A stretch of DNA of 64,000 nucleotides, taken from assembly GCA_034687125.1 (NCBI GenBank), contig JAQGBZ010000037.1, positions 186,001 through 250,000 of the forward strand, given 5' to 3'. Under the pieces are notes generated by a model that was not told the origin of the DNA, did no database searches, and saw only the letters and a program-made list of their open reading frames with translations. Positions 9,001-53,900 of this stretch are shown here, piece by piece. The position numbers and the translations under genes are program-made. Source of the DNA: Neelides folsomi. Its lineage: Eukaryota > Arthropoda > Collembola > Neelipleona > Neelidae. The first letter of the stretch is position 1. Each line of letters begins with the position of its first letter.

Positions 9001-9023
9001 ATTACGCTAATTTATAATTGCAG
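1..9023. other. Non-coding stretch, probably SoxF intron or upstream regulatory DNA
   Basis: I see no open frame here that resembles a known protein. The downstream SoxF exon at 9024 begins inside the HMG box, so an upstream exon carrying the first half of the box must exist on the + strand. I did not find a sequence for it here, so this stretch is most simply a long SoxF intron; that is inference. Composition alternates between AT-rich blocks (about 1480-2130, 6200-6700, 7850-8700) and more balanced, purine/pyrimidine-skewed blocks (about 1-1400, 2140-2640, 3500-6100, 7500-7850). The latter contain many ATTAAT-like and GGAATGA-like words and short overlapping open frames. These could be cis-regulatory DNA. 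No transposon ends, long repeats or RNA genes were recognised. Confidence 0.5.
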
Positions 9024-10885
9024 GGAAGAAGTGGCGGAGCCTCACGCCCAACGACCGCCGGCCCTTCGTCGAAGAAGCCGAAAGGCTCAGGGTCCTTCAC
9101 ATGCAAGCCCATCCCAACTACAAGTATCGGCCGAGGAGAAGGAAGCAGTCGAAGCGTGGTGGTGGCCGAAGGGCCAATGACATTCTCCTCCCACAAGGAG
9201 ACCCTTATGTGGGGAACTTCCAGGGGTTCCATACACCTGAAGCGTCGCCCAATGGCAGCCCCGACCCAGACCCTCGCACTAAGGACTTCCGTCGAATCAT
9301 TAATGGTAAATTCCACAGTTTACACTCATTATGTCTCCTTTTTTATAATAATAATAATATATGGTTAGTGTATATGAGTTGGAGTAACGGGACTTTAGAG
9401 GCTGGCGCCCCAATTCCCCCAACCACCGCTTTCAGGAAATTGCAACGAGGGCGACGTTGTTCGAATCTCGACGAGTTCTCATTCTAACACCCAATGTCTG
9501 CTATTAAAATGCCTCTCCTCTTTTGCTACATAAATACATACAATTTGTATTGCACTCTATTGAAGATACATAGAAATAGCAAATTCTTAAAATTACCTAT
9601 ATTGGCATGTAGCCTGTAAGCCTTCTCTCATTAGGTTTTATCCAGTTCAATTCAATGGTAGTAGAACTATTATTTGAACGTGATCTTGGTGATCCAATTA
9701 CAATGCTAGCCGAAAATTAATAGCATTTATCATGATATAAATATTTTGTGGAGCGTCTTTAGGCAGAGCAATTATCCGAAGGTATAATTGACGAGTGTAT
9801 TGTCTATAATTGCTAACTGTTTTTATCTTTATGATAGTTTTTAATGAAATTATCATTTGATTGGATTAACGAGTAGACAGTTTAATAGATCGATATTTTA
9901 TTTGCTCTGCTGAACAAAATATAAAAGAAGGGAAGTCATTGTGAGTAGCAATTGGATGATATTCCACATGGGTCCCACATGCTATAAATTTGAAGAGAGG
10001 AAGAGGTCAGTAGGGAAAGATAATAACTACAAGTTATTAAATGATTAAACTTGATAAGAATGTACGTACACAGAATGAGATGCAACAATTAATGGATGAA
10101 TGGTATTTATTAAAGGTTCAGGCGGCACAGTACTTCAACAAGCACTCCTCGACTCTTCAATGGACCTCAATGGTCACACACATGTCCAACACCAACAGCA
10201 GCAACATGGAGGTCACCAACAACACCCTGATGGTGTATCGCTCCCAACCCCTGAAATGTCACCTCTTGAGAATTCCCTCTCCGACCGTGAGGGTCTCACC
10301 TCATCTGCCTCTTCCTCAGGAGAAGAGCGATGCAAGGGGAGCCCTGTCATGCAACTCATCTCGAAGTTCTCAGGGAATAAATATCCCGCGAGGACACCTC
10401 CATTTGCCCAATTCCACGTTTCAGGAATGCCAGGGCAAGGAATCCTAGGACATCATCACGGGTCAGAGTTCTCATATAGACAACATGACTATTTCGATTC
10501 TCCCCAGTCTTACCATTACGAACACTATCCTACAACTTGGATCCCTGAAGAGGAATCTGCACGGGGCTATGAGTTAGAATCACCCTATCTTCCTCATCCT
10601 CAGCAACAACAGCAGCAGCAGCAGTCGCAATCGCAACAACCACAACATCATCACCCGACGTTCGATTTTCCTAATGGGGACCAACAGGGTTATGGACATT
10701 CGCTCGATGCGAATCACAATTCCTTCTATACCTACGGGCTAAAGATGGACAGTGACCTGTTGGGGTATGATGACCAACCCCAAAATTCCCATCTCTCTGC
10801 TAACGAGTATGAAGGAACAAATTGTAATTCATCCTCTAGTCTCATTTTCAAGGCCCTGTCCGAGGCCTGCAATGGGAATATGTAG
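9024..10885 (+). CDS. SoxF-class (Sox7/17/18, fly Sox15-like) HMG-box transcription factor, last two exons
   Basis: This is a nuclear DNA-binding regulator of the SoxF group; only its 3' part is present. Exon 9024-9305 opens after a TTGCAG acceptor in the middle of the HMG box. It reads [20 protein letters not shown], then [20 protein letters not shown], the third helix and basic tail of a Sox HMG box, closest to SoxF. It ends in phase 1 at a GTAAAT donor. Exon 10116-10885 resumes in phase and contains [10 protein letters not shown], a SoxF hallmark motif, followed by His/Gln-rich stretches (about nine Gln near 10600-10625) and a stop at 10883. These 350 codons lack the box's first half and the N-terminus, which lie upstream. 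A second AG at 10120-10121 could replace the acceptor and remove two codons (Gly-Ser). The motifs make the family assignment firm; orthology to fly Sox15 is inferred. Confidence 0.9.
9306..10115 (+). other. SoxF intron
   Basis: An 810-bp AT-rich intron between the two SoxF exons, with a GT donor at 9306 and AG acceptor at 10114-10115. It starts with a run of (ATA)n-like sequence near 9345-9360. I see no other feature in it. An alternative in-frame AG lies 6 bp downstream at 10120-10121. Confidence 0.8.
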
Positions 10886-28468: not shown

Positions 28469-31132
28469 ATGGTGCTCAAGAAGATTTGCTGTATTGGTGC
28501 TGGATATGTTGGAGGCCCAACGTGCTCCATCATTGCTTACAAATGTCCTGACATTCAAGTTACCGTTTGCGACAGGAGTCAGGAAAGAATTGATCAATGG
28601 AATTCTCCCAAGCTTCCAATCTACGAGGTAAAAACTTTTTCATCTTTTACAAGCTTATACTTTTAGCTTTTTACCCATTTATTAACTTTATGGTTATTTT
28701 TTAGCCCAACTTGGACGAAATTGTGAAAGAATGCCGAGGAAGGAACCTTTTCTTTACAACTGACATGGACCCGGCAATTCGAGAGGCTGAGCTAATCTTC
28801 CTCTCTGTTAATACCCCAACTAAGGATTTTGGGATAGGAAAAGTACGAGTTTAAATTCTTTAACTTCATATAAGCTTCGAGCAAATAAGAATATTTATAA
28901 TAAATAATAAGTTGTCCGTATAACTAATCTATAGATTAACATTAAGAACTAGATAAATATAAAGAAATATATCCTGGTGTACAATACAATAACATTAAGC
29001 TAATTGTAAGTAACTTGGTACACAATATTTAATATTGCAATAACACAATATGTAATTTAATATTTACAGATATTTTACTTCTTAATTTCATATTTAAGTG
29101 GTACTATTCATGTATTTGTAATTTGAAGCATTGTTTTATATTAAAAGGGTCGAGCTCCTGACTTAAAATTTGTTGAAGCTTGCACGAGAAAAATTGCCTC
29201 TGTGAGTACAGGAAAGAAAATTATTGTAGAGAAAAGCACCGTTCCAATTCATGCTGCCGACAGCATTCTCTCTATCTTAAGAGCCAATACTCGCCCTGAT
29301 GTGGAATTTCAAGTATGTAATATTTTATACTACTTAACTTAAAAACACCAATCAGCGAGGCATCACCTTGATCAATACATTAAAGTTACTTTTTAAGTTA
29401 GTGTGTATGAATAATATATGATTTTCTTTATTGTTGGTTGATTTCTCTTTTGACCACTAATTAATATGATGATGTTAGTCTATTAACATTTATTCATTAA
29501 ACTGCTTAGGTATATTTATGAACAAACATCATACACACCAAATATGAATATTGTTCTAACTATTGTGTACTAGTATTTGTGCACTCATCTTTCTAATAAA
29601 CTTTCTATGCTTGAAATATTTTTTAACTTGAAATAATGCTTTAATAGTACTCATATTGTGATGTTTATTTCTGTATACAGGTTCTATCCAACCCAGAGTT
29701 TTTAGCTGAAGGAACGGCAATCGAGAATTTATTAAATCCAGACCGAGTTCTTGTCGGGGGAGAGCAATCTGAAGCAGGGCAAAAAGCCATTGATGAGCTC
29801 AGTTGGATTTACGAACATTGGATTCCAAAAGAGAAAATCATTACAACAAACACTTGGTCTTCTGAACTCTCTAAATTGGTTATTTGCTCTTAATTTCATT
29901 TTCATATTAAACTAATCCTTTAATTGATGTTCTCACTTGTATTATTAAAGTATTAACTAAACTTAATTGAAACTATCTAGGCTTCAAATGCATTCTTGGC
30001 TCAAAGGATATCAAGTATCAATGCCATTTCAGCTATATGCGAGAAGACGGGGGCTGATGTGAGCGAAGTTGCTCGAGCTATTGGAACAGATTCCAGAATC
30101 GGAGGAAAATTCCTTCAAGCCTCGGTCGGCTTTGGAGGAAGTTGCTTCCAAAAAGATCTCCTCAATTTGGTCTACATTTCCGAATGTTTAAACCTTCCGG
30201 AAGTTGCTGCTTATTGGCAACAGGTACGGATTACGGAATCTAAATGCAATTATCTAATGAATGATATAATGATAATAATACATACCAGTTAGCAGCTTAC
30301 CATCAACTAATAATTAATTAAAATTATTGCATTAATTAATTTAATAATTGGTTAAACTTTCATAGGTTATTGACATGAACGAGTTTCAAAAATCTCGTTT
30401 TGCAGCAAGAATTCTTGAGAGACTTTTTAACACCATTACCGACAAGCATATTGCTATACTCGGATTTGCGTTTAAAAAGAATACAGGAGATACGAGAGAA
30501 TCACCTGCAATTTATATAGCAAAATATTTACTTGAAGAAGGAGCCATGATAAATATTTATGATCCTAAGGTCAATAGGAAATATATATAAATAATTTTAG
30601 AATTTAACATTATTATGAAATTTAATACCAGTAGAGTAATTCTTCGTACCTTCCTTAAATTATTACTGTGAAGTGAACTGTGAAATAATGTATAAAAAAT
30701 ATTTAAATAGGTTGACGAAAAGAAGATTTACGAAGACTTGACATCTCCTTTGGTGACTGATGAACCAGAGAGATTCAAAGAACTTATCAAAGTTCACAAT
30801 TCGGCTTATTCTGCAGTTAAGGATTGTCACGCCTTTGTCATTTGTACAGAGTGGGACGAATTTACTGTAAGCTATATAGTATTGGAAATTAGGATCATTT
30901 TTTTCATATTCAAATATGTATGTTACAAACGAATATATCAAAAAATGTTTTTCAGGTTCTTGACTTCAAGAAAATTTATGAAAACATGCTTAAACCGGCA
31001 TTCGTTTTCGACGGTAGAAAGATCCTGGATCACGACGAGCTTGTTAAGATTGGATTCAATGTGGAGACAATTGGAAAGAGAGTCGCAAGAAACCCTGTGC
31101 TTCGTGGATGGGCAACTGTGGCACAATATTGA
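28469..31132 (+). CDS. UDP-glucose 6-dehydrogenase
   Basis: This cytosolic enzyme oxidises UDP-glucose to UDP-glucuronate with two NAD+, supplying heparan and chondroitin sulfate synthesis (fly sugarless, human UGDH). Exons: 28469-28627, 28705-28842, 29148-29312, 29681-29878, 29981-30223, 30366-30569, 30711-30866, 30956-31132. All junctions are phase 0, total 1440 nt, 479 aa, close to the fly and human enzymes. The N-terminal Rossmann fold carries GAGYVGGPT (residues 10-18). [10 protein letters not shown] marks the central substrate-binding region. The catalytic cysteine is C275 in [10 protein letters not shown], and K219 matches the conserved active-site lysine. The C-terminal UDP-binding domain includes [16 protein letters not shown] and [10 protein letters not shown]. 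The start was chosen because [16 protein letters not shown] aligns with family N-termini. No defects seen. Confidence 0.97.
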
Positions 31133-31216
31133 TTTAAATAGCAAAGTCTCAAAAGGCCTTTAAATATCAGAGAAAGGGTGGATAAAATAAGCTAATGCAA
31201 TTTTATACTTTTACTT

Positions 31217-32903: not shown

Positions 32904-35900
32904 TCAGAGCTCTATCTTGTCGTATTTCTTTGTTTCGGAAACGACCGTAGGGATGAAGTTTGCAAGAGTTTTCTTCACTCTTAGGGCAGTAAGACGAGCA
33001 GCTGCATTTTGGTACCAGCATTCTTTCATCAGCTTCGACATGAGTTTCAAAGCCTTGAATGGATATAAGAATTAAATATATTAGAAAAGAAGATAAATGC
33101 TATGTAGGTATTGATATTAGTATTCCTTGGTTCAGTATAAATAATATTACCTCGACACTCTGCCATCGGTTTGGGATGGAAGGTCTCTGTTGATCGACGC
33201 ACACGACTTTCCTCATCTCTTCAATAGTCGGGTCAGAGGGAACATTGTCGTAAAACGGGAGTTGAAACTCGTCGTAAATCCCTTTTAAAGGAAAAGAAAA
33301 TAAAGATATAGTAAAATAGCTCTAAGGTCTCAAATTAGTAAAAGTTAAAAGGATTTTATATTGCTTAGACTCGATTTAAGTACAAGTTTATATATTACCT
33401 CCAACATTGCATCGTCTGGCTAGTTCCCAAAATACTAAACCCATCGAATAAACGTCAGCTCTTTTGAAAGAGTCAAAGTGGTTCATGTTGATCGATTCGT
33501 CAAGAACCTACAAGAAGGAAACATTAAATAATGACAACTTTTAAAATTCATTAAAATTTAAAGATGGAAATTGAACCATCAGCATTTTAAACTAAAATGT
33601 TTAAGCATAAAATTTTTAATCTCTCAATTACGCTCATTCAAAGAAAAAATAGTAATCATATTTCGCATTTTACCTCTGCTGCCATGTATCTTTTGGTTCC
33701 CACACGATTGTTGATGGGAATATCAACTTCGTTCGAGTCCGTGTCGTAGCGGACGGCCAAACCCAAGTCACCAATGCAGCAACTACCATTGGACTTTACA
33801 AGAATATTCTTTGACTTTAAGTCCCTATGTGCAATGGCTGGTTTTCCTTGCGTTCCCACAATCTCCATGTGCAGATGAGCGAGACCAGTGGCGATTGAAA
33901 GAGCCATTCGAACCATTAAATAAGGTTCAACAGTGGTTCGGCTTAAGTAGTCAAAGAGTGATCCTTTCTCATGGTAGTCAGTTACAAGCCACAATTGCGT
34001 CCATGTTCCATTATCTTAAAAAAGAAAAAATTGTCATTTTATTTATAATTTAATCAAGAATCTTAATTAATTTGTTGACAGAAAATTCAAATTGAAAAAC
34101 AATTAAATAAAAACTTGTCAATTTCTTGTAAACTTTTTAATTGTTTAATTTAATACTCCTACATACTATTTATACTTATAACATTTATATGTTGTATAAC
34201 ACAATTTTATAACATAATTGGTATTGTATAAATTCAAGTTTGTATAGAATCCTTTATGTTCAATTTTAATTAAGTTTTGGATCGAAGCTTTGAGGTTCTT
34301 ACCTTTGTTGTCTGCGGCCACGAACCCGAGGATGTTCTCATGTCGGAGCATAACAGTTTGGTAAATCTCTGCTTCTCGGAACCATGATCGCTCTTCCCGG
34401 GATGAAAAAATCTTAACAGCGACATTTTCACCACGCCAACGTCCCCGCCACACTTCACCATACCGGCCTTTTCCAACTTCTTCAATTAACTGAACTTGAC
34501 GTGCAATACTCCGTTGAACAAGGAGAGGAAGACCTTTCAAGTAATACATCAATTATTTTCACCATTATTCAATAATTAAATGTAAACATGAATTACACTT
34601 TTCAAAGAACCCTCAACTTTCAATTTCCCACTCTTTAAATTTACATTTTCCCTTTAATTAAAATTAGAAAACTGAATAAACAAGGAGTCATTGAACTCCA
34701 AGCTTTGATGTTTAAGCTTTTATTCATTCTTCTCTAGCCATTGACGTATTAAATCATTATATTACTTGAATTCTCAATAACTTGTTACAAAGCTTGTAAC
34801 ATAAATACTATTAACCATACACTGTACAATTTCATTTGCGTTCATACATTTTCAAAGTTTAAAGGCATTGAAAATTGAGCCAGACAGCAGAAGCTCGACA
34901 TCAAACAAACTTCACCGGCATCATACCAGTGTCTATTATTTACTATACAATACAAAACTATTATCATTTTATTCTCTATTTCCTATCCATGTATCTACGC
35001 ATAGAATCAGAAAAAGTTGCATGTGTTGGAATAGACTCGATCTGTGTGTTCCTTTTATTTGCAATCAAATCCTACTGATGTTCAACATACCATGTAAAAT
35101 CACAAACATCTCAAGAAGCCGAGACTAAATGAAAGGAGGAAATTTACTTTCTCATTATTATGTCTACAGTCTACAAACTCTTCATCAACAATGTAAATGG
35201 AGACTTTAGAACTCATTTTAACGACTCTTTATCAAAATATAAACATTCAAACCTGAAACTCCTATACAAAATCTCACATTACTATTTAACGATAATGGGA
35301 AACGCTAGTAAATAATTGAATTAAACAATAAAAAAATTTACCTGAGCCAGATCCACTTGTTGTCATTTCAATCATTTCTTTTAAACGCGGTCCACCTGCT
35401 TGATCAATCTCAACCCCAGTGAGAAACTTTTTATCTATGAGGGGTCTTTCGTGTCGGCGTTCGAGTTTATTTCGGTTCTTTCGCTGCCACAAGTAGAAGA
35501 ATACCATAATGACGAAGAGACAAATGATGAAGATGGGACCAGCAATTAGGAAAGTCATTTCCCAAAGACCAAGGTCACCGAGACCGGAACCAGTTATCCC
35601 CCCTTATCAGATAAAACATATTAATATACAAATCTCAATAATAATGAAAATTGTGTATAGAAAAAGTGGAGATCAAAGAAAGGATCGGAAGATTTTAAAG
35701 GAACGGAGGGACTAATGTTTGTAAAATAAAGTTAAAGGAAGAATTTAATTTGGAAAACCCTTTGCCCTTGATTAATACAAATTAGCCGTTGCATCATTCC
35801 GTTTATTGAGTCATGTCAAAAATGTTTTAAATTTCCATTACAAGGCACTTTAAGCAGAAATATAAAAGCAATATTGTTAAGATTTATAGTTCTACTAATA

Positions 35901-38900
35901 CTAAAAAGCTTTTTCCATGCAGTTATATTAAAAGTAACGTTAAACCTTAATTTTTTAGCAGTATAGCAAACTATGCATCTCATTCCATTAGAAATCATTA
36001 AATATCCTCTCTTTATTATATAATTACATAAAAGTTATTTGTAAAGTTAAAATACATTACATTAAAGTATAAAGAGCAAATAATCGGCACGTTTATTATC
36101 GTGTGTAGATCTGACATTTAAATATACAACGAATTTATACAATGATTTTATGAACCTTGAAATTCCTTTACAAATTATGAAACAGAATTGTCTAAAATAT
36201 AACTTTCCTCAAACTGTCACTTACAGATATTCCGATTGTAAAGTTAGGAAGATATTGAGTAACATCGTTAGAGATCATTATAGAGATGAACCATAAATAT
36301 GCAGCATAGCTTACACCGACCGAAAAAGGACATTTAACCAGTAGACCAAAGATAGATAAATTGTATAAAATTGGAGATTTATATTGTGCATGTTATCTGT
36401 AAGTATAGTAGTACTTGTACTTGGCATAAAATGTGAATACAGAATAATGTAAGTTAATTGTCAATCAAATTAAAGCCCCATAAAAGTTTACAGAAAAGAT
36501 AAAATAATTATTAAAAGGAATAAAAGTAATAATTGTTTAAAAAATAATTTCAATGCGCATGTACGATCAAATGAAAAATAGAAATTGTGTTTCCCCGTGT
36601 GTTGTCCAAATGCAACCATATTACTCATGTATGTTCTGCGTGTCCTCCCCATTTAATTAGGTAACTATTAATTGTCGAAAATTGTTCGAGCACATTTAAA
36701 TGTTATGACGAGGACGTGCGTGTAAAGAAGCGACATGGATCAAATTGCACAATGAAGTGAACGAGCAGTGTCGTGTCTTGGGAAGAGAATTGTGTGGTGC
36801 GGGTCTCACCTCGACCAAGATCAAACATCACCGGTGGCTGTACAGGAGTGTGAGTATCAGTGGAAGGCCCTTTAGAGCAATTAGGTTTCAATTGAGCATT
36901 ACAGTTATCGGAATCGCAACAGTCGGAAGAAGTGCATATACTATCAGACATCTTGTCCAATAGCCCTTTGCTCTGTTCATCTTTACAGAACCAGATTTGT
37001 TGAACTATCAGCCCGGCTTTGGCCATACAACTGTAAGAAAAAGTTGGAGAAAATATTCGTGAGAAATCAGTGCCGAAAAAAATCTCCATTATTTCTTCTA
37101 ATGTATCATTGTCATCTCTTCGGCCTCTGAAGCTTCTCACCATGCGAAGAGGATGAATGTCGAGGGAAAGCAACATGCTGCAATTGATGTTGGAGCATTC
37201 ATTGCTCATATTTACATTTTATAATACATTACTACCACCTTCTAAAAGTTACTAGCACCACTAGTGCATTCAAAATGTTAACGTATTATTAAATTAATGT
37301 ACACTTAATTTAAAAATTAAAAAATAATTAGCATTTGAATATTTACATTTAATTAATTTTTATGCTGTTGTGTATGTACTCTACAATATGGATTGAATGT
37401 ATGAATTGATCATTATCAATATGATCATGCGATCAAACCCAGGATGTTTTAATTAAGTTTTGTAAATATTTACAATTGAAATCTATTAAGTACCAATAAC
37501 TCAAATAATTATAAAATTACTTATCATATACCATGCATAAATAACGTCATATACAATTCTTATAATATTCTATCTTGGATTTGGAAATAATAAGTAGTAT
37601 TCTACTTTAAATAAAATCAAAGTTTTTTCAAACAAGTGATAAGTCGTGAGCATGAAAATATGAACAAGTACAATATTAATAAAAATTCTCATTAATGCTT
37701 TTTTTCTAAAGAATTTCTGAATTCAAGATGAGGTGACTTCTCGTGGTTTAAATGTCAAAGTCAACTTACTTTTAGAAGGCGAATCTTTAGTAAAATATAA
37801 TAGAGGAAGTAGATAAAGTTGAAGCTATTCTACTGATCATTTATGATAAGTAAGTAAATACAGTATCTACAAAAAAACAAACAACTTCCTTTGATACCTA
37901 CCTACCAATAAAACAACATTATCAACAATAAGTTAGATCTACTAGCGATAATTACTCAATCTACAATTTAGAAGAGCATTTTATCTTAAATGTATTCTTA
38001 GCTTCAAAATAATTTCATTTCAAAATACTTTTTTTCTATTTTACATTAGTGTTTAATCAAGTCGCTTCATCAATTCTGCAGAATTTTTATAATAAAGCCA
38101 TATTTTGCATCATCTACATTTTCTAACAATTAATTTATGCTTTATCTAACCTAACCACTATTGTATGTTTATTAAATTACTTTATTAATGCATCAGTTGA
38201 ATAGAAAAGAATTCACTGATTATTCGAATAAAAGCCTCGTGCATATTACCGTAAAGGCAAATTAAGTTATTAAATATACTCAATTATGTTGATGTGGATA
38301 AACGAAGAATGATGCAACTTTAAGTTTGAATTAATCAACTTAAAACTCAGAACAGGAGAAATCACAATTGTGTGTATTATTAGATGAACTTCACCACCAC
38401 CTCCATCACCAAATGACTACAATGGCAAATGAATTGTCTACAACTGGTAAGATCAAAACTAGCGATTGGAAAATATAAAATATATGTTTGATAAACTGCC
38501 GACAAATGTACAATGTACAAAACAAAAAGCGGGTGAAGTGTGAAAAAAGTGAGAGATATATACAAAACTAGTTATATAAAAAACTGTAGCAGCTAGCCGA
38601 CGTGAGAAACAAACGGAGTGAAAGAGAATAAAAATAAAAGAAAATGTGCATGTGTGAAGATGAAGTGGGGGGAGGAAAGAGGAGTCGTGAATGATTTGAT
38701 TTGGGCAGTCCGCAAATGGGAGCTGCTTACCTTCCGTCACAGGACGAACATGGAGGTTGGGCTTCAAGTCATTGTTACACATGTCAACCTCTTTACAACA
38801 TTCAATGACAAATGATTCATTGATCTTATTTGAATATTGACATTGAACGGGTTTGTCGGGTGGATATAACTCCTTTTGTAACAGGCACCTGAGACACACC

Positions 38901-41484
38901 AAAGCTCAATCAGATTCTCCCTAATTACCCTTAATAAATTAATCATTTTTATAAAAAATATTTAAGCAAATAACGAAAAGATCATGATTTTCTAAATGAT
39001 GCCGAAAATGTTTGCCTACAAAATTATGACGAAAGACGAATGAAATTGTTGACACTAAAAATATTTGTAACATTTGAATGGTTGAATGGTTAAGAAATGC
39101 CTTCACGATATCATCCAATATTATAAGTAAATGTAACAAAAATCTTAATATATTAAAAATTAAATTATTATTATTTTAAAAGGCTTATACATCTTCAATT
39201 TACATACGAGTTACAAAAATAAAAACACTCATTTTAATAAATTAAAGTGGTAAATATTAATTGAGGTTGAATTAGCCCTAAGATCTTTAGAATGAGGATA
39301 ATAATTATTTCGTGGAAAGTATTCCTTCTAACTGAAGATATATAAAATATCTCTAAATAATTTCCGCATGATTATTAAATGTTATCATTCCTACACGTTT
39401 TAAATGAGGCTATAATGCCATCATATTTTATCAATACAATGTATTTTTATGATAGTGAACGATATGAACGAACATAATATGCACTTAACAATAAATAATT
39501 ATGTAAAAATAGTTTTAGAAAAGCATTCGAGATAATATGTCGATGTTGCACACTAAACACAAAATTGTCAAATTACGAAAGAGAATCATTGAGTCAACAA
39601 CCTAATGGAGTGTTAATGCTAATGCTAGTTGGGGAGCTTTACGAGTCAAGATAAATTGAATGTGCTTCAAGAGATAAAAACTCTTTCCATAAACAAATAT
39701 AATAAATATACGAGATTTATATATCAAATGAATTCCGTTTAATATTCCTAGAAGATGAATATCATATTAAACTTTTGAATATTTTAAACCAAACTTCCTC
39801 ATTTTTAAATCTAACCTGAAAGAGTTAGCCTTCACATTTACAATTTATTTATTAATTCGTCTACACTTCAATAAAAAGGAATTTGACTTGTTGATTGAAA
39901 CACTTGGGCTGAAATCCTCAATGTTGTTATTATTTATGTACAAAAATATTGTTTAATATGACTATGATAGAATTGAGAGAGGCGAGAGTATTAATGAGTC
40001 AAATCAAAAAGATTTCTTTTGCTACTTCAATTAACACGAAAACTTCAAACCATTCTGTGAATAGTTTTAATTTGTAACCAGTGATCAACAACTAATAATT
40101 AACTAGTGTTTTTATGTAGCCACACTTATTTAGTATCAGTAGATGAATCACACAGGGTTTAATAAGATAAAATTCCAACTTTTTTATATTAGAGAGTTAA
40201 AGAGCTCTCGGGTTGTGGATAAATTGTAAACAATGCAGATTGTGGTCATTGTGATGTAAATGTTTAGGAGTGAATGAACGAGTGACAACCGATTTATGAA
40301 TCCTAATTGTCTCCACTCATCTTACCTGGGAAGAAAAAAGTGGAGAAATTGAGGGGCGAATAACGAGGGAGACTTGGATATAATTCAGAGTTGCATAAAT
40401 CATAATCGCGACAGCATCGAAGGACAAAGTCGGACTCATTTTTTCGGCACCATACGGGATTCTCAGGAGGGAAACTTTGATCCATCCCAAGACACCTTAA
40501 CGATCCCAAATACACTCAAAATGAGCTCAATAATAATTTTTAAGAATATCATTCACTCAATTCGTAAACTAACTATATATGTAATAACAAAGTCATCATA
40601 TCAACCCTTCATCATTCGCCATGCTTCTGTGACGTAGAGAATAAGTGAAATAAAGCTCAAAGTTTATTAGTTTGAGCATAAACTCATTCTGATTACAACG
40701 GCACATCAAACCTTAAAATATTTTTAATGACAATCTTTCGACATCTTTTTAAAAATGAATATATAATATATACACTGCCTCATGAATAAATAATGCAATT
40801 GAGTGATGAAAATGTGGAAATCTTAAAAAAGAAAGATCTCTGCCTTATTAGCTAATTTCCATTTCATTTCGCTATCTCATTTCAACTTATTTTTGCTAAA
40901 TCATCAATGTTCTTTTGATCTTGGACATTTTTCAGTCTCAACCTCTCAACATCCCTATGATAAATAATATATGCAAACATACAAACTAACATAGTAATCA
41001 TAATTAGTTAATGAATTGACCATTTAAAAGTATCAATACACCATGTCAAAACTGTTTAACAATTTTTAGTCTGAAAATATTGCTGGAATTTAACGTTGCT
41101 TTAAAATATCCAAACTAATCAATAAATGATTAAATAAACATCTAAATTAAATAAGTAAATAAACTTGTACCGGTATGAATATTTTATGGTCCCATTTTTC
41201 AATAATTCAGCTGAAGTGAAACAAAAGCCATCCGTTTCACATGTTGAATTATCACAAACGTCACATTTGCAGATGAGCCCTATACAAGAATTTAAATAAT
41301 CTTTAAGCACTTCGCATACATAGTATTTAGATACATTATATTTATGTTAACATGATTAAAATGTAATAATATTGTATTATTTTAGTAAATAGAAATATAA
41401 TTTATCCTCACCATTGATAAGGGAAATAGGGCTCAGAACGAACAAGAGTCCAAAGTGGATCAACATGAGTTGAAGACGGGTCAT
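32904..41484 (-). CDS. babo: Type I activin/TGF-beta receptor, Baboon (ALK4/5) class, with three alternative ligand-binding exons
   Basis: A plasma-membrane Ser/Thr kinase receptor that signals through the Smad2/3 branch. Constant exons: 41484-41412 (signal peptide), 41279-41171, then one of three alternatives (40495-40326, 38888-38731, 37030-36810), then 35602-35342 (TM and start of GS), 34533-34303, 34014-33674, 33507-33399, 33281-33151, 33053-32904. Every combination stays in frame: 524, 520 or 541 aa. The ectodomain begins after a leader of about 22 residues with [19 protein letters not shown] single TM segment follows, then a [10 protein letters not shown] box and a kinase with [15 protein letters not shown] and HRDLKSKN. 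The L45 loop (ADNKDNGTWTQ) is of the activin/TGF-beta class, not BMP. The usual APE motif of subdomain VIII reads AAE. An upstream non-coding exon probably ends at 41894. Confidence 0.93.
36810..37030 (-). CDS. Baboon-type alternative ectodomain exon, third in transcription order
   Basis: 221 nt, entering in phase 2 (CG+T gives Arg) after TTTTTCTTACAG and leaving in phase 1 at a GTGAGA donor. It encodes the second half of the ligand-binding fold: [10 protein letters not shown], a WFC, then CCDSDNCN, the family's CCxxxxCN signature. It is the longest of the three and has seven cysteines against five in the others, with a Pro/Thr-rich juxtamembrane tail. It is nearest to the TM exon. The donor was chosen because it alone combines phase 1 with a good consensus. 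Confidence 0.85.
38731..38888 (-). CDS. Baboon-type alternative ectodomain exon, second in transcription order
   Basis: 158 nt with a GTCTCAG acceptor and a GTAAGC donor, phase 2 in and phase 1 out like its two sisters. It encodes [11 protein letters not shown], then QC, an N-glycosylation site (NES) and CCKEVDMCN. Its spacing closely matches the exon at 40495-40326, so the two are the most similar pair. It would give the shortest receptor form (520 aa). Confidence 0.87.
40326..40495 (-). CDS. Baboon-type alternative ectodomain exon, first in transcription order
   Basis: 170 nt with a CGTTAAG acceptor and a GTAAGA donor, phase 2 in and phase 1 out. It encodes [17 protein letters not shown], an N-glycosylation site (NES) and CCRDYDLCN, followed by a hydrophobic Ser/Phe-rich tail. 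Five cysteines. It would give a 524-aa receptor. Confidence 0.87.
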
Positions 41485-44918: not shown

Positions 44919-47900
44919 TTACACAGTAGTTTCATTCTTTCTCGCTGAAGAGTGAAGCGGTTGCATTTCCCTCTTTAGCCTATCCAGTTCATTGTAGTAC
45001 TCATGGTCAGATTCTTCTTCAGACCTTGAGGAATGTCTTTGGATTGGGCGGAGATGCTGACTGCTAAGGGTGACTGGGAATGGCTGGGAATTATTGCTCG
45101 TTGGGGACGTGGGGGAATTGTTGCCTCCGTTCGAGGACGAACTCGTCGTGGTCATAATACTCGGAATAGGAAGACCAATGGGGGCATATGCGAGGGGAAT
45201 GTTGGAAATGTTGGAGTAGTTAGGAGTGCTCATTAATTGATATTCGGGATTGTCAACGAGAATGGGATAACCACTTTTCTTCCCACCTTTCCGCACTTCC
45301 ACTGTAATTAAAAAAAATAATGACATTAGTCAAACTCGATTAGTTGATTAGCAAATAAATTAAAGAATATAAAACAAAGGCATAAATTTTAATGTGAGTA
45401 ATTAAAAGACGGGAATATGGCTATAAATACCTTGAGGTTGAAGTTGAAGCTGTTGAGCCTGTTTGGACTCCGCCATGAGGTCAAGGTAGGTTGAAGCGTT
45501 TTGATTATTTTGTGGAGAAGGGACGAGGTAGTCATCATCATCAACCGGGAGATCAAGTTTAAGGTTCATTCCACCTTCAAGAGTTCTAATTGATCCGCCA
45601 TAGCCGTCACTGTTGTCACGGCCTTTAAGCGGATCAGGGCAATATCGACTATCTGGCCCACTTGCTCTCAAATGCCTGTCTCTGTACCGACTATGGAAGT
45701 TTCTTGGGGAGTCAGGCCAAGAAGTGTCTTGAAGATACGTGTTCCTCTTCATCGTCCCATTTGTTGAGGAAGAGGAGGTTGGAGGAGCGCCGTTGCTTCT
45801 AGGATTGAGATACTCATCGGCATCCATGATCAACTCTGGTCCTTCCATGGCAGAAGAAAGATTTCGAATGAGTTCTCTTTCGTCTTGTTGAGTGTAGGAC
45901 GGAAGCCTCATGAGTTTATCGCCTGGAATGACAAGGAACCGACCTGGATCTCTTGACATTTTGGAAAACTCTTCAACGAGTTCTTTGAATGAAGGACGAG
46001 CTTCAGGGTCGACCATCCAGGATTTAATGATGATCATGTAAAGTTCAAGAGTGCAATAGGGAGGTTGTTCAAGACGTTCTCCTTTCATGAGGAGATCTGG
46101 AACTTCACGAGCTGGAATATTTTCATATGGACGGCCTCCATAAGTCAATAATTCCCACACAGTAACGCCTATTAAGAAAACAAAGTTTATTATAATCTCA
46201 TTAATTATGTTTGTTTAATTAATTGTATTGTATTGTAATATCAAAAAAGCTGTTTTTACCAAAAGCCCAAACGTCGCTCTTGTGAGTGAACACACGTTCG
46301 CGAATACATTCAAGTGCAAGCCATTTGATCGGCATCTTTCCGCCTTCAGCTTTGTATTCATCTTCATCCAAATCCAAAAGTTTGGCAAGTCCAAAATCAG
46401 TGATTTTAACAAAAGTAGGAGTTTGAATGAGAACATTTCTCGCAGCAAGATCTCGATGAACCAAACGACGACTCTCCAAATATTCCATACCTTAAATTTT
46501 AATAATTTGTCCATTAGTACACAGAAGTAACAACAAAATTAGCAACTCAAAATATTAAATAAAAAGAAGTAGTCAAAAACCAAGATAAAAATTCTTCACC
46601 TTTTGCAATTTGTGTACACCAATTGAGAAGTGCCTTTGAACCGATCTTGTCTCTGTTATTATGAACGTAATCTCTTAAACACCCAAGCGGCATAAGTTGA
46701 GTGACAAGCATGAGTTGAGAGGTTAAACAGACAGCGAGGAGTTTGAGGAGATGGGGATGTTCCACACTAGCCATGATATACGCTTCATCCAAGAATTCCT
46801 TGCTCGTATTTGCTCCTGTTCCTTCTCTCAACACTTTGATAGCCACAGGGATCTTGACATTTTGTCCCTCAGGAATCCAAACTCCCTTGTAGACAGTTCC
46901 GAAAGCTCCACATCCAAGAATTCCTCCTTTCCTCAATTCTTCTTCCTTCACCGTCCTGAACTTATTCAGATTTGGTTTCACATTGGTTGGCCGAAGCGGC
47001 TCGGAATCCTCGTAACCTCCCGTCATTGCCATTGTCATTTTCATTGTATTCTCCTTTGTCTTTGCCTTCACGCAATAGAGCCCGAGTATGGTAGCGAAAA
47101 TGGCCAGGATGATAAAGCAAACGACCGCACCAACAATGATTGCAGATCTTTGATCGTCTTCGCCACTATAAAAAAACAATAGGTAAGTTATTCCAATTCT
47201 CATCTTCTCTTTCAATGAGCACATTCAATATCAGAGCTACTGTTCTTTTCTTACAAAGTGGAGCTAACTGGATGAAGTGCACAAAATGCTTCTTGGTTAT
47301 CCTTCACAATCCTATGAGGATATTCCGAGGGGCAAGTAAGTGTGCAAATGAACGTTGAATTTCCTTCATTCCCATCGTCTCCATCCTTTAAATAATGAAA
47401 TAATTAGTGGAATTAGCAAAATATTAAAAGGAATATTAAATGAACTTTATGTTTCAAAAACTTACAGGGTATATTCTGAAGTTTTGACAAGTGGTACAAT
47501 TAGCAGGAGTCGGGCCGTTGCATCCCTTGCACTCAATTCCACATTCGAGACATTCCTTAATATCGTCATCGGCGTAGAAATCATGAGGGCATTCTTCTTC
47601 ACATTGCTCTCCACGCTTGTAATGCATGCATTCTTGACACACCTGCTCAAATTACTCGGTTATTAATCTCCCATCTTGTATCATCCAGCTAAGCATAGAT
47701 AATTAAGGTCTAAAAGGAAAAAACAACTTGCCTGCATGTGAAACCCATAAGCTGTACATTTCTTGCATCGAGGATGGCATTTTCTGCAAATGGATTTCCC
47801 AGCCAAAGCTTTCAACGGTCCATTTTCCTTCGGCCCAATTGATTCGTAGTAATAACCTTCCGGACAGGGTTCGTCTTTTCCCAAACATCTCTCCTGCAAT

Positions 47901-50900
47901 CCCCAAATGTCAAGGATGAGAAAATGAATTTGAAAAAGGGTATGAAAAAGGATTTGGAAATGGATTTGAAAATGGAAAATTGTGAAATGAGTGACAACTC
48001 ACGATTTGTTCGAATTCGTTGACGAGAGCCTGCTGACAAGAATTACAGCCGTTGTATCCGATCGTGTTGGCAGACCCAGTGCACCCACCAATACAGTTCT
48101 CGTGACATGGGAAACATTCTCCGCTCAACTTGTACTTGGGCTCTGGACACGCCTCGACACAGAAGGGGCCGTCTTTGACATTCTTACACTTTGAACAGTT
48201 TCCTGGACCGCTCCCTGTGCACGTCCCGTCGCACTGGTCGTGGCACGGCTTGCACACACCAGGACTGTCCTCGTAAATCCTACAAATCCAATTTCATTGA
48301 TATAGATAATGGACCAAATGAATATGGAATGCATTTAGGTTGAACAATCAACTTTTTTAATTTATCTCCCGTCTTGTGACTGTGTATTTAATATTAAATT
48401 CCTTAGCTCGTATTAACTACTTTTTGTAATTCAGCCAGCATGAAAAAGGTCGGCGAGAACAAGAAATAATGAATTTGAACATGCATATAAGAAAATATTT
48501 AACTTCTTGGTGTTAAAGGACAAGGTAATAAGTTAATCCTTTGTAGTATTTGAGTTTCATGAAGAGTTAAGTTGAATTAAATGTTAATTAATATGTTTCT
48601 TTACCCTCCAGAAGAACAAGAAGGAATGCAGGTTTCTCCAAACTTGAATTTTTTGCAAGATAGGCAATCTGTGGGTTCGGGGCCCCAACACCCTTGGACT
48701 GAACATTGGCTACTGCAAACAGCTCCGCTCTTCGAGCACATCTCATTTGGTTCATTGTTCCCAATTTGTTCTTCCACTTTCACTCCTGTGATATTCTTCC
48801 AGTCGATGGTGCCCGCAAAGCAAAGATCTTTATTCTCGAGGATTGTAATCGCTCCCGATCGAATCTTTTTCAAACTTCGGAGATTCAAAGACTTCAAAGA
48901 TGTTTTAACGATGTACAGGGATGAAAAATAATCCGCCTTCTCCCGGCCCCCAATCACTTCCAAATTCCTACATAAATGATTAAATAAATATTTGAACATC
49001 AATCCTTGAATCTCAAAAGAAAGAATCTCGTCGAACTTGCGACTCTCGAGGGAACTGTATTACTAACAATAAGAAATAAGTATTTTATCTATTACCAATT
49101 GTCAATACATTTACAAATATCTCGTGTACATGAGAAAAAATTACAATATGTTCAAATGTCTTTACATTTCAACGAAGGAGTCATAAAAATTGAAAATCAA
49201 AATCAACAAACTTGTCGAAAGGTTTAACAGCAGCTTAAATTCTTTGTACATTTCATACTAGTATTTATACTGTCCTCACTTTTTCATCAATACAACATTA
49301 TTTGCATATAATAATCCAAGACACATTATATATGATCCTTCTACTAGGCATATATCTGAAGGTAACTCGACGAGTGCTGAAGTATTGTAAGGTAATAAAA
49401 ATTAAAGCTGTACCTGAAGTAAGAAAGGTTTGTGAAGTTTGGATGCGTTCCTTGAATATTAAGATGTCCTGTCACTTCCTTCAAAGTTGAGAAAACTTCA
49501 AGTTTTTCTGGAGCCATCGGGCCAAATTTTTCCCCAAATGTAAAGTTTTGATGGACTTCTTGAAATCCTTTAAACGAGGTCTCGAGAATTGTAATTGAAC
49601 CTTCAATGATGGTGCAATTCTTAAAATTATCAATGTTCCCAGAATGGATAATCCCATTGTCTTTGGTCCCTTGACACTTTTTTCTGCACGGTCCATTACA
49701 GCTCATACATTCCCCATCATTTGCCTGTTTAAAGAATAACAATAATTCCTTGTACTCATTACCACTTTACTACACCGGGTTTATGAATCTCAAATCTTAC
49801 CTCTTTGTCTGGTGGACATTGACGGACGCAAGCTCCTGCCGCTGGATCTCGTAATAAATGGTCTGGACATGTTTTTACACACGTTGCTCCATATGCATAC
49901 TTCCCTTTGGAATTCCTCTCGGACAAATAAGTGTTGGGATTGTAAATCACGAGTGACGGACACTCATCTTTACATTCGCCCTCATCATAAAATTTCTTGC
50001 ACGCCTGTTAAAAGTAAAATGAATAAAATACAAAACTATAAAAATTTAATGATAACGCGTTCATTTTTTTTAATAAATGTAAACCTGTCAAACTCAGGCA
50101 TTCAAAAGTAATTTAATGGGTTGAAAAAGATCTTACAAGGCAATCGCTCTTCTTGGGTCCAGTGCATCCACCAGCACATGATAAATGACAGCATTGACGA
50201 GGTTCAGGTCCGTAGCAGCGTCCTTCATGGCATTGGGGTGAACAATTGATCTTTGAGAATTTTTGGCAATTGTGGGGACCTTCTCCCCAACAACCAGCTT
50301 CACAGGATGAATCACATGGCGGGCATTCTCGTTCCGGATGAGTGTAATTGTAAACGTAAACGTATTTGCTGTTCAATCCACTGATGATTTCATCCCAATT
50401 GATTGTTTTCACATGACACAAATTGTAATTATTGAAAAGTCCCACATTTCCACTCAAAACATCTGGAAAAGGAATAAGTTTTTTTTAAAATGACTTATTA
50501 TTCAACAATTATTCAAGTGGTACATAGTGAATGAATGTGAGTTCCATGTCTCGTTTAATTTTTTTCCAGTCGAGGAGAGCTCTATTATTTCATGCATGAA
50601 ATGCCTTTTGCACTTATGTAAGTATAAGGGGATTTACAATGGATTACACGGATTACATAAAAGTAGTATGTAATGTACGCAAATAAGATGGAAAACACGG
50701 GGAGATTGAAAGTGCATATGAAGCATTATTGAATAATCGAAAAGGTAGATACTTTTAACAAAGTACATGCAAAATAATAATAAAAAATGAAAAATAAGAA
50801 AATAATAGCACTGTGCGTTTCAGTAAAGTCATACAACAATTATAAATCTTTTTCGGCGCCTATGCTTCAATGGTGTTTTAACCCTTTATGACGGGTTTGA

Positions 50901-53900
50901 ATTATGAGGGTTTCCTTCTCACCGGTCTCGTCGGCCAGGGAGAGAGCGTGCAAAAATTTATATTTTACCATTCTGGATGTTTTATGTTTAAAAAATTTAA
51001 GAATTACCACGGAGGGCGGGGAGCTCCAAGTTTTCCATCCTGGAGAGCGTGACCATCAGTGCGAACTCATCGTCATGGACGTTGAGGCGGAAGAGCGACC
51101 GGCCGCGGATGACTTGGAGGTTTGGAAGAACGATCCGCAACACGTCGACGTGAGAAATGAGAACGTAGCCTGTCACTTCTCGGATGTGGTTCAAAAATGA
51201 GAGGTCGAGGTCTTTGTCTTGAATCCATGTCAATTCCAAGTTGCCCTCCACATAAGTGCAATTCATGTATCTATCCTTCAAGTTCCGGTAATGATGGCTA
51301 CGATTCGACGGCACAGACATCCGCCCATTCGTCCCAAGACATACTGTTCAAAAAATTATCACAATTAGCAACGTGTTGGTATTATGAATTATGAATTACA
51401 AAATGATGATCCAAAGGAAAGCGTTTAAATGCTAATACAAAAATCCCAAGCTGTTTTTCTAATAACCTCGCGCGAGAGGTGAAGAAGGCGAAAGCTCTCT
51501 TATAAAATATAAAAGTTATAAAACTATAAAATGCAATGAGGTAATATGAAAAAATGATGAATCGCAATGTTTAAACCCCTTCTCGCTCCCTTCATTTATT
51601 TTTTCCATTCATCTTTTATTTATGCTCGGTGTGTATGTAATTGTACTCTAATTGTGTGTCAGGTGTCAGACTTCGTTCATGCCAGTTCATTAAGATCTCA
51701 ACAGCCTAGAGTAATCCATCATCATCACCATAGCCCATACGGAACGACAAGGAATCCAAATAGACGATACATTAAATAGATACGACCATTGAAATATAAA
51801 AAAGATGGTGGGTTTTATAGGGACACTCTCCGTCTCATCTCAGAGGGTTCGAAATCCAAAGGATTGTGTGATGAGAGAATTAAATTCCTCTTCCCTTTGG
51901 ATCTTCATCCATCATGAGACAATTATTGTTCCACGATCTGTTCCTCTTCCAGTCAAGTGTGAGAATGGAGAGTTAGTGGTTACATTACTGCATTTTAACT
52001 CTGTGGTCAATATTCATAGTTGGAGAAGTGAAACGGAGAATTCCTCTTCTCTGGTCGTAAAAGGAGAGATAATCATTACCTGCCCTCAATCCCTTTATTG
52101 CACGAATGAGAAAAGGCGGGTTGGGGGAGCGAAGACGAAATAAACAATTTTACGACACACTCGAATGGGAGAGAGTGAGGAACTAATAAATAAGGTGAGA
52201 TGATGGGAGAAATAGATAGATACTTTTAATATGAGGAAATATCACTGGCGCCTTTTGTTCACATAATGCCTTTATCCCAACTTGAGATTCTTAACTTGAG
52301 ATTCTCTGATTGAAAAGATCCACATCCAGATGGGCATAATTTAATAAGGTGTATAATTTTGAGTCGTTTTTAAAATTTAGACTTGTCTTTAATCCTTTTC
52401 TCATACATGGGCTTCATAAAGAGGGCTTTTAAGTGGAGATGAGAAGGAATTCTTCATGAGCTCTTGATGATGGTTCTCTCGCGAAAGATGTACGAGAGAC
52501 GAGTTACGTCCCTGAATCCATTATTATATGAGAAAGAGGTGTAATGAGAAATGCGAGTTTACGACGGCCAGTGTGGTGGTGGAGAGTTTTTATGGAGGGA
52601 CAAGGAAAGGGTTGGAGCCGTAAAGGGCCCACTGAGAATCATAAGAGTTAATTAATGACATGCTCATCAAAGGGAGTTTTAGTTATGGGATTCTCCCTCT
52701 TCGCTTTTTCTATTGAGAGCCGACGGTTTGTGATGGCGGTGCGGTTCGTCGCCGAAGACGGTCTCTTCACATCTATTGTAATTGTGAGGAGCTCCAGAGG
52801 TATTTGTCCTCCAGCTCCAAACACTTTTATACCTTGTCTTTAAACACATTCCTCCACCTTTCCCCGCATCATCTCTTTTATAATCACCATTGGTTGTGGC
52901 CGCTCTTTCTTAATTACTCTTCAGGACTCATGCCGGCTCGAGAGCCTCTTTTGTCTTTGCTTCGAATAAAAGTCATGTCAACGTAAAAGGACTCCTTCAT
53001 CTTCACAGAGATGAAAATCGGACTTCTTTTTTAAGGTTTGAGTGACAGGCGGCTCTCAATCTCGTCTTCGATTGGAAAACGCCTTGCCGCGAGGAATGAA
53101 ACCATCGCCTTCTCCATCGCCAATTCAACCCGATTCGATATAATGGGATTGAGTTGAAGACTCATTCCTTCCTTTCTTAACTTTATTCCTCATTCCATTG
53201 GACGTTCACTGCGGAGATTCCTTTCCTTCTATTATCCGAAACCTGTCATTTTTTACTCTCATCCCCAGCATTCCATGGCCAAAAACCAAGTACTTCCATG
53301 TCAGGCGGAATTTTATTCCCCACAAACTTCCCTCGAACATCCACAGACACGGAGGGGGATGGAAAACGACGTGGTTCGTAAAATAAATAAAATGTTCAAA
53401 ATCAATCCAAGGAATCCAAAATCACACAATTCATTATGTGTGTTATCTCTTGTTGGAATATTATCTCCATTACTCAATATAAATGTCCATTGGCCAAATT
53501 TAAAGGTGAGAGAAGAGGCGAAGTGGAACTTGTTATATACTTCTATATACACTCATAAGAGTGGGAGGGAGAGAAGGAGAGTTAAAATTAGCCTACATAC
53601 CTTCACTTGTAAAGATTCCCTTTCAATTACATTTCTTAGAGATTTATGACTACAGGTTTCATATACTTGTGCACTGAGAGAAACCTATAAGATTATTATT
53701 ATAACTCCACTCGATCCTTAGCCATGAATTTTACCGCCTCGACCGTGTTATTTTTCCATAAACTTCCCAAAGGTATGTGTGTGTAATGGTTCGGACTCGC
53801 AGTGTGGGATTTTTTCATGCTCAATTAAAAATTTCATCTTTGAAAAAGGAAGAGAATGAATTGCAAACGAAGGAAGATTCGCCTTTGGGTGTTTCCAAAG

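Follow-up and report, generated by a model that had tools for sequence, protein, structure and literature searches.

A candidate three-way choice of ligand-binding exon in a Baboon-class receptor gene of an arthropod genome

Does a single receptor gene of the activin pathway offer its transcripts a choice among three versions of the ligand-binding domain? The question is raised by a gene on the minus strand of a 64,000-nucleotide stretch of DNA (positions 186,001 to 250,000 of contig JAQGBZ010000037.1, Neelides folsomi assembly GCA_034687125.1), hereafter the window, whose own coordinates are used throughout. The gene codes for a type I activin/TGF-beta receptor, and three exons, here called A, B and C, lie in tandem within it, each encoding a second half of the extracellular domain (ectodomain). 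We consider it highly probable (roughly 0.87) that this gene is the arthropod counterpart of Drosophila baboon (babo) and that a transcript takes one of the three exons. The gene and its coding exons, in the order of transcription, are the following:

41484-32904, minus strand: type I activin/TGF-beta receptor gene, from start codon to stop
41412..41484, minus strand: exon 1, start codon (ATG at 41484) and signal peptide (recognized by eye), with the donor gtgagg following 41412 and a frame that fits every isoform
41171..41279, minus strand: exon 2, constant, encoding the first half of the Activin_recp ectodomain with 5 Cys, phase 2 exit, donor at 41171
40326..40495, minus strand: alternative exon A, 170 nucleotides, second half of the ectodomain, 5 Cys, CC-x5-CN
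38731..38888, minus strand: alternative exon B, 158 nucleotides, second half of the ectodomain, 5 Cys, CC-x5-CN
36810..37030, minus strand: alternative exon C, 221 nucleotides, second half of the ectodomain with 7 Cys, CC-x4-CN and a tail rich in Pro/Thr
35342..35602, minus strand: constant exon after the cassette, phase 1 entry, juxtamembrane part, transmembrane segment (by eye) and start of the GS motif
34303..34533, minus strand: constant exon, end of the GS motif and start of the kinase
33674..34014, minus strand: constant exon, kinase core, 13-letter L45 segment identical to that of TGFBR1, APE motif reading AAE
33399..33507, minus strand: constant exon, kinase
33151..33281, minus strand: constant exon, kinase
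32904..33053, minus strand: last coding exon, C-terminus of the kinase and stop

The coordinates given for A, B and C in the original prediction, which was made from the letters of the window, and its two flanking junctions at 41171 and 35602 proved exact. AG/GT borders are present at all three alternative exons, and the acceptor downstream of the cassette is the one at 35602. All three are 3n+2 nucleotides long, are entered in phase 2 through a split Arg codon (CG/G or CG/T, divided at the slash) followed by a Cys codon (TGT or TGC), and are left in phase 1, as had been proposed. Used singly, each exon leaves the frame open from start to stop, and the complete receptor has 524 (A), 520 (B) or 541 (C) amino acids. 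When all three are skipped, a stop is met in the exon at 35602, which carries stops in both of its other two frames. The pairs A-B, A-C and B-C run into stops within the second exon of the pair and meet further stops in that at 35602; this bears out the earlier claim that two of them together break the frame; the A+B+C triple, containing the A-B join, would stop in B. Thus, as the donor before the exons is in phase 2, the acceptor after them in phase 1 and each exon 3n+2 nucleotides long, only a single choice is productive, and a transcript that includes none of the exons, two of them or all three meets a premature stop. Incidentally, the open reading frame of exon C (36703-37218) extends about 190 nucleotides upstream past the acceptor (37218-37031, minus strand), so that translation would not terminate immediately if this end of the intron were retained.

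We scanned both strands of the whole window for an AG-N-TGY acceptor/Cys in phase with an open frame containing CC-x(3-6)-CN, and exactly three sites were found, A, B and C, i.e., there is no fourth copy of the cassette exon by this motif on either strand of the window. Among 2,000 Markov controls of the 5.6-kb region, a single one had any match to the motif, and none (0/2000) had one of at least 45 amino acids with an in-phase donor. Stop-free frames of 170, 158 and 221 nucleotides arose in 326, 490 and 106, respectively, of 20,000 Markov sequences. The G+C content of the three exons (0.39 to 0.44) stands above that of the four introns around them (0.27 to 0.30), with constant exon 2 at 0.34.

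Each of the alternative exons completes the same domain, as had been claimed for them. Exon 2 alone scores 19 bits against Activin_recp, below the Pfam cut-off of 20.9 bits, and the isoforms spliced with A, B and C reach 26.7, 39.7 and 27.4 bits, all of them over it. The GS motif and the Ser/Thr kinase also exceed their Pfam cut-offs in full isoform B. The kinase has its best match in TGFBR1 (579 bits), followed by BMPR1B (505), ACVR1 (489) and receptor R3 (435), in a comparison of 28 matches at E 1e-70 that did not have the ACVR1B and ACVR1C kinases among them. Its L45 segment, the part that sets the choice of Smad, is identical to that of TGFBR1. By these comparisons the predicted product is a type I receptor of the Baboon/ALK4-5-7 class, in the activin/TGF-beta branch, and the Baboon label of the original prediction is upheld. 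The likeness to vertebrate TGFBR1/ACVR1B (ALK5/ALK4) lies in the TGFBR1-like kinase with its L45 segment and in the ectodomains of isoforms B and C, which are nearest to TGFBR1; the APE motif (33682-33674, minus strand) is a difference, since it reads AAE here and APE in TGFBR1. In the two other type I receptors of the same genome this motif reads ACE (contig C26) and APE (contig C40). To our knowledge, no three-way exon cassette is known for TGFBR1 or ACVR1B.

The three exons differ in ways that could matter for the ligand. Exon 2 contributes five cysteines, to which A and B each add five, reaching the usual ectodomain total of ten; exon C adds seven, and the two extra cysteines ascribed to it are indeed there. 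The CCxxxxCN signature attributed to all three holds for C only (CC-x4-CN), A and B having one residue more in the spacer (CC-x5-CN). From the first to the second cysteine there are 14 residues in A and B, with Pro-Pro-Glu-Asn-Pro and Pro-Pro-Asp-Lys-Pro, respectively, and 13 residues without proline in C. TGFBR1 has a similar proline stretch, Pro-Arg-Asp-Arg-Pro, between its first two cysteines, where it contributes to the ligand interface. The most similar two exon peptides are those of A and B, with 18 of 42 aligned residues identical and none of 2,000 shuffles as good, and the other two pairs align over the cysteine knuckle only (B-C, 11/23 identical, 0/2000 shuffles; A-C, 8/14, 8/2000). 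At the DNA level, the exons with 300 bases of flank on either side give only short matches to each other (best E 0.018), which argues that the duplication is old and that the copies have been kept open; a recent duplication was thereby ruled out. A pre-helix extension of the receptor was also considered, and it was dropped because the pre-helix passages of PMC11865472 concern the ligand.

The Drosophila gene provides the nearest known case. In babo, the fourth exon exists in three mutually exclusive versions (4a, 4b and 4c) that give distinct ligand-binding domains (PMC7371420, PMC11195991), the gene is entered under mutually exclusive exons in PMC2687788, and PMC12124520 pairs its isoforms with the ligands Myo, Act-beta and Daw. 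Here and in the fly, an activin-branch type I receptor has three alternative exons that alter only the ligand-binding domain, at the same place in the gene. The primers in PMC7371420 translate as GFCFTSV (babo-a forward) and EIMKRIFET followed by G (babo-a reverse), KDRDF and SVQDYV (babo-b), and DQLPPE and VLPDYVP (babo-c); the GFCFTS of the first lies in the first half of the ectodomain, as it does here. The cysteine box CCKSDFCN, quoted in PMC12124520 for an isoform that the passage does not name, has a four-residue spacer like that of exon C, and a spacer of five residues, as in A and B, can be deduced from the babo-b primer (PMC7371420). The cassette is well formed and, since babo follows a common layout with it, ordinary in kind. 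The original prediction spoke of exactly the fly arrangement, and as to the number of exons and their place in the gene this stands; the exit phase is where it seems to fail. In babo-b and babo-c the codon before a shared GAT TAT is CAA and CCA, respectively (primers of PMC7371420), and, as their last two bases differ (AA versus CA), the fly exit phase would be 0 or 2, provided that the primers match the gene exactly. The insertion points used for tagging fit phase 0 for A (21 bp before the exon end) and for B (9 bp), and that for C (10 bp) does not (PMC12124520). The longest exon is C in our gene and, by the tagging positions, B in the fly (PMC12124520), so the pattern of lengths does not follow the pairing by spacers.

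It should be noted that several points weigh against a baboon counterpart with three exons in exclusive use. The use of all three, and their mutual exclusion, is what their sequence leads us to infer. Exon A has a weak-looking 3' splice site, with 9 pyrimidines in 20 positions; B has 12, as does the exon at 35602, and C has 17. Measured against the TGFBR1 half-domain alone, B is well above chance (0/2000 shuffles reaching its score), and A (60/2000) and C (7/2000) appear weak. In the PDB, the whole ectodomain with A may be closer to a BMP receptor, its best match being BMPR1B (32.1 bits) and not TGFBR1 (24.3), with B preferring TGFBR1 (36.2; BMPR1B, 25.4) and C likewise (22.9; BMPR1A, 13.6), although all of these gaps are small. 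The exit of the fly exons, as deduced from the primers, seems not to be phase 1, and ours is; the exon boundary would then have shifted, or the two cassettes would be homologous only in part. The introns, finally, offer no common docking site (see below).

What these points could mean is best seen by setting out the other explanations. The cassette might have arisen in this lineage independently of that of the insects, with only the function alike. The difference in exit phase deduced from the fly primers would agree with this, and so would the closeness of A and B (18/42), as expected from a younger duplication. We nevertheless hold it to be unlikely, though not negligibly so: in both animals three copies occupy the corresponding position of this gene, and both genes have spacers of four and of five residues between CC and CN (in the fly, CCKSDFCN and, by deduction from the babo-b primer, that of KDRDF). 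Another possibility is that the gene regularly employs just one or two of the three, a further exon being a relic or rarely included. The poor pyrimidine tract of exon A (9/20) speaks for this, but A, B and C all have open frames with the cysteines and N-glycosylation sites where the domain expects them, every one of the isoforms is over the Pfam cut-off, and the scarcity of DNA similarity among the exons suggests that coding was kept long after the duplication; we find such a relic or rare exon quite improbable. Exon choice through alternative promoters and first exons, instead of a splicing choice within one pre-mRNA, is scarcely credible, for although the introns are roomy enough for promoters, A, B and C all depend on an upstream exon that brings the first half of the domain and ends in a phase-2 donor, and the pattern search (two patterns, minus strand, 45000-32000) found a single exon-2-like half and no second one.

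We return, then, to the choice of one exon among three within a single pre-mRNA of a baboon counterpart, and to how it might be enforced. Steric exclusion by a short intron was rejected, as the four introns measure 675, 1437, 1700 and 1207 nucleotides and even the shortest is 675. U12-type donors as the cause of the incompatibility were discarded too, since none of the donors (gtacaag, gtaagat, gtaagca and gtgagac) resembles the U12 consensus. The original prediction had asked for pairing sequences in the introns, and we compared the six pairs of introns, numbered i1 to i4 in order, each with 200 Markov-resampled controls. The pair i2-i4 exceeded all of its controls (0/200 reaching the observed score), followed by i3-i4 (5), i2-i3 (14), i1-i2 (42), i1-i3 (168) and i1-i4 (200), in AT-rich sequence from this genome alone; a docking site shared among the pairs did not emerge. 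The complementary AT-rich stretches of i2-i4 are at 39727-39680, in the intron between A and B, and at 35667-35621, near the acceptor of the transmembrane exon (minus strand). Exclusion would be a matter of regulated splicing, in which C may be the easy choice and A the one needing help. The mechanism of babo splicing is itself described as unknown in PMC12124520.

The same genome allows the rest of the pathway to be examined, over the 75.1 Mb (megabases) of the assembly. Type I receptor domains occur at three loci (four Activin_recp and four GS matches). The other two, on contigs C26 and C40, resemble our gene in having Activin_recp and GS matches but have one Activin_recp match each and no cassette, the second half of the ectodomain being apparently unsplit at the Arg-Cys point. 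MH2 matches were found on four contigs. There are nine matches to the TGF-beta ligand domain, which we group into six genes. One of them (C321) has inhibin beta B as its best match (127 bits), another (C319:62768) has GDF11 (GDF11/GDF8; 167 bits) and is myoglianin-like, and a third (C36) scores almost alike with inhibin beta B (73 bits) and BMP3 (72), so that its branch is unsure. The second ligand gene of contig C319 is nearest to BMP6, and those on C143 and C552 we take, by eye, to be of the Gbb and Dpp types. The myoglianin-like (C319:62768-63052) and BMP6-like (66911-67343) genes are arranged tail to tail with about 4 kb between them. Three of the ligand genes thus look activin-branch by their best matches. 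Drosophila has three activin-branch ligands and three receptor faces, the same count as here, and we have counted this inventory in favor of a three-exon Baboon gene.

As for the host, 39 matches to the arthropod cuticle domain agree with the arthropod of the original prediction, and the insect odorant-receptor family, with three matches only (best E 8e-8) in an assembly of unstated completeness, argues against a winged insect and makes the further claim that the host is not an insect likely, no more. In the first 10,000 of the 15,157 bases of the mitochondrial contig, ND2, COI, COII, ATP6, COIII and ND3 were recognized by eye in this order on one strand, with ND1 on the other, which also suits an arthropod. 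Among the matches listed, no paper deals by title or abstract with babo isoforms outside insects. The words "isoform" and "exon" do not appear in the available part of the Tribolium paper PMC10703416, and the passages seen of the crustacean review PMC8256442 name Babo without isoforms. A search for relatives in genome_contigs and viral_contigs, with the 113-residue kinase exon (34012-33674) as the only query, gave 42 and 10 pattern stretches, respectively, none of which was confirmed.

If the cassette works as we propose, one of A, B and C would be spliced in as the second half of the ligand-binding domain, splicing regulators probably making the choice by way of splice sites that differ in strength (A weak, C strong), and wrong joins would presumably be destroyed through their early stops. 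The swap would change the loop and the cysteine-knuckle region of the ectodomain and leave the kinase, and hence its presumed Smad2-type output, the same in every choice. Tissues could in this way tune their response to Activin-beta-like, myoglianin-like and a third kind of activin-branch-like ligand. A bolder version, in which the choice of exon would switch one activin-branch kinase between ALK4/5-like (B, C) and BMP-receptor-like (A) faces, seems to us very unlikely; if A did bind a BMP-type ligand, splicing would turn a BMP signal into a Smad2-type output. The interest of the locus lies in its likely depth in the arthropods, in the affinities of exon A and in the extra cysteines of exon C. 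Should the host be outside the insects and the cassettes have a common origin, the choice among three receptor faces would predate the insects and would belong to the activin pathway of ancestral arthropods. With a second instance at such a distance, one could also ask which exon residues set the choice of ligand and how an exclusive choice among three is enforced.

The neighborhood of the receptor gene was annotated by eye. Upstream of it and in the same orientation (44919-51347, minus strand) are open reading frames that resemble an EGF receptor, with Cys-rich repeats and a tyrosine kinase. On its other side, less than 2 kb away and tail to tail with it, are open reading frames similar to UDP-glucose dehydrogenase (29981-31163, plus strand). 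SOX-like open reading frames, marked by an HMG box and by a tail rich in Gln and His, are found at 9011-10885 on the plus strand.

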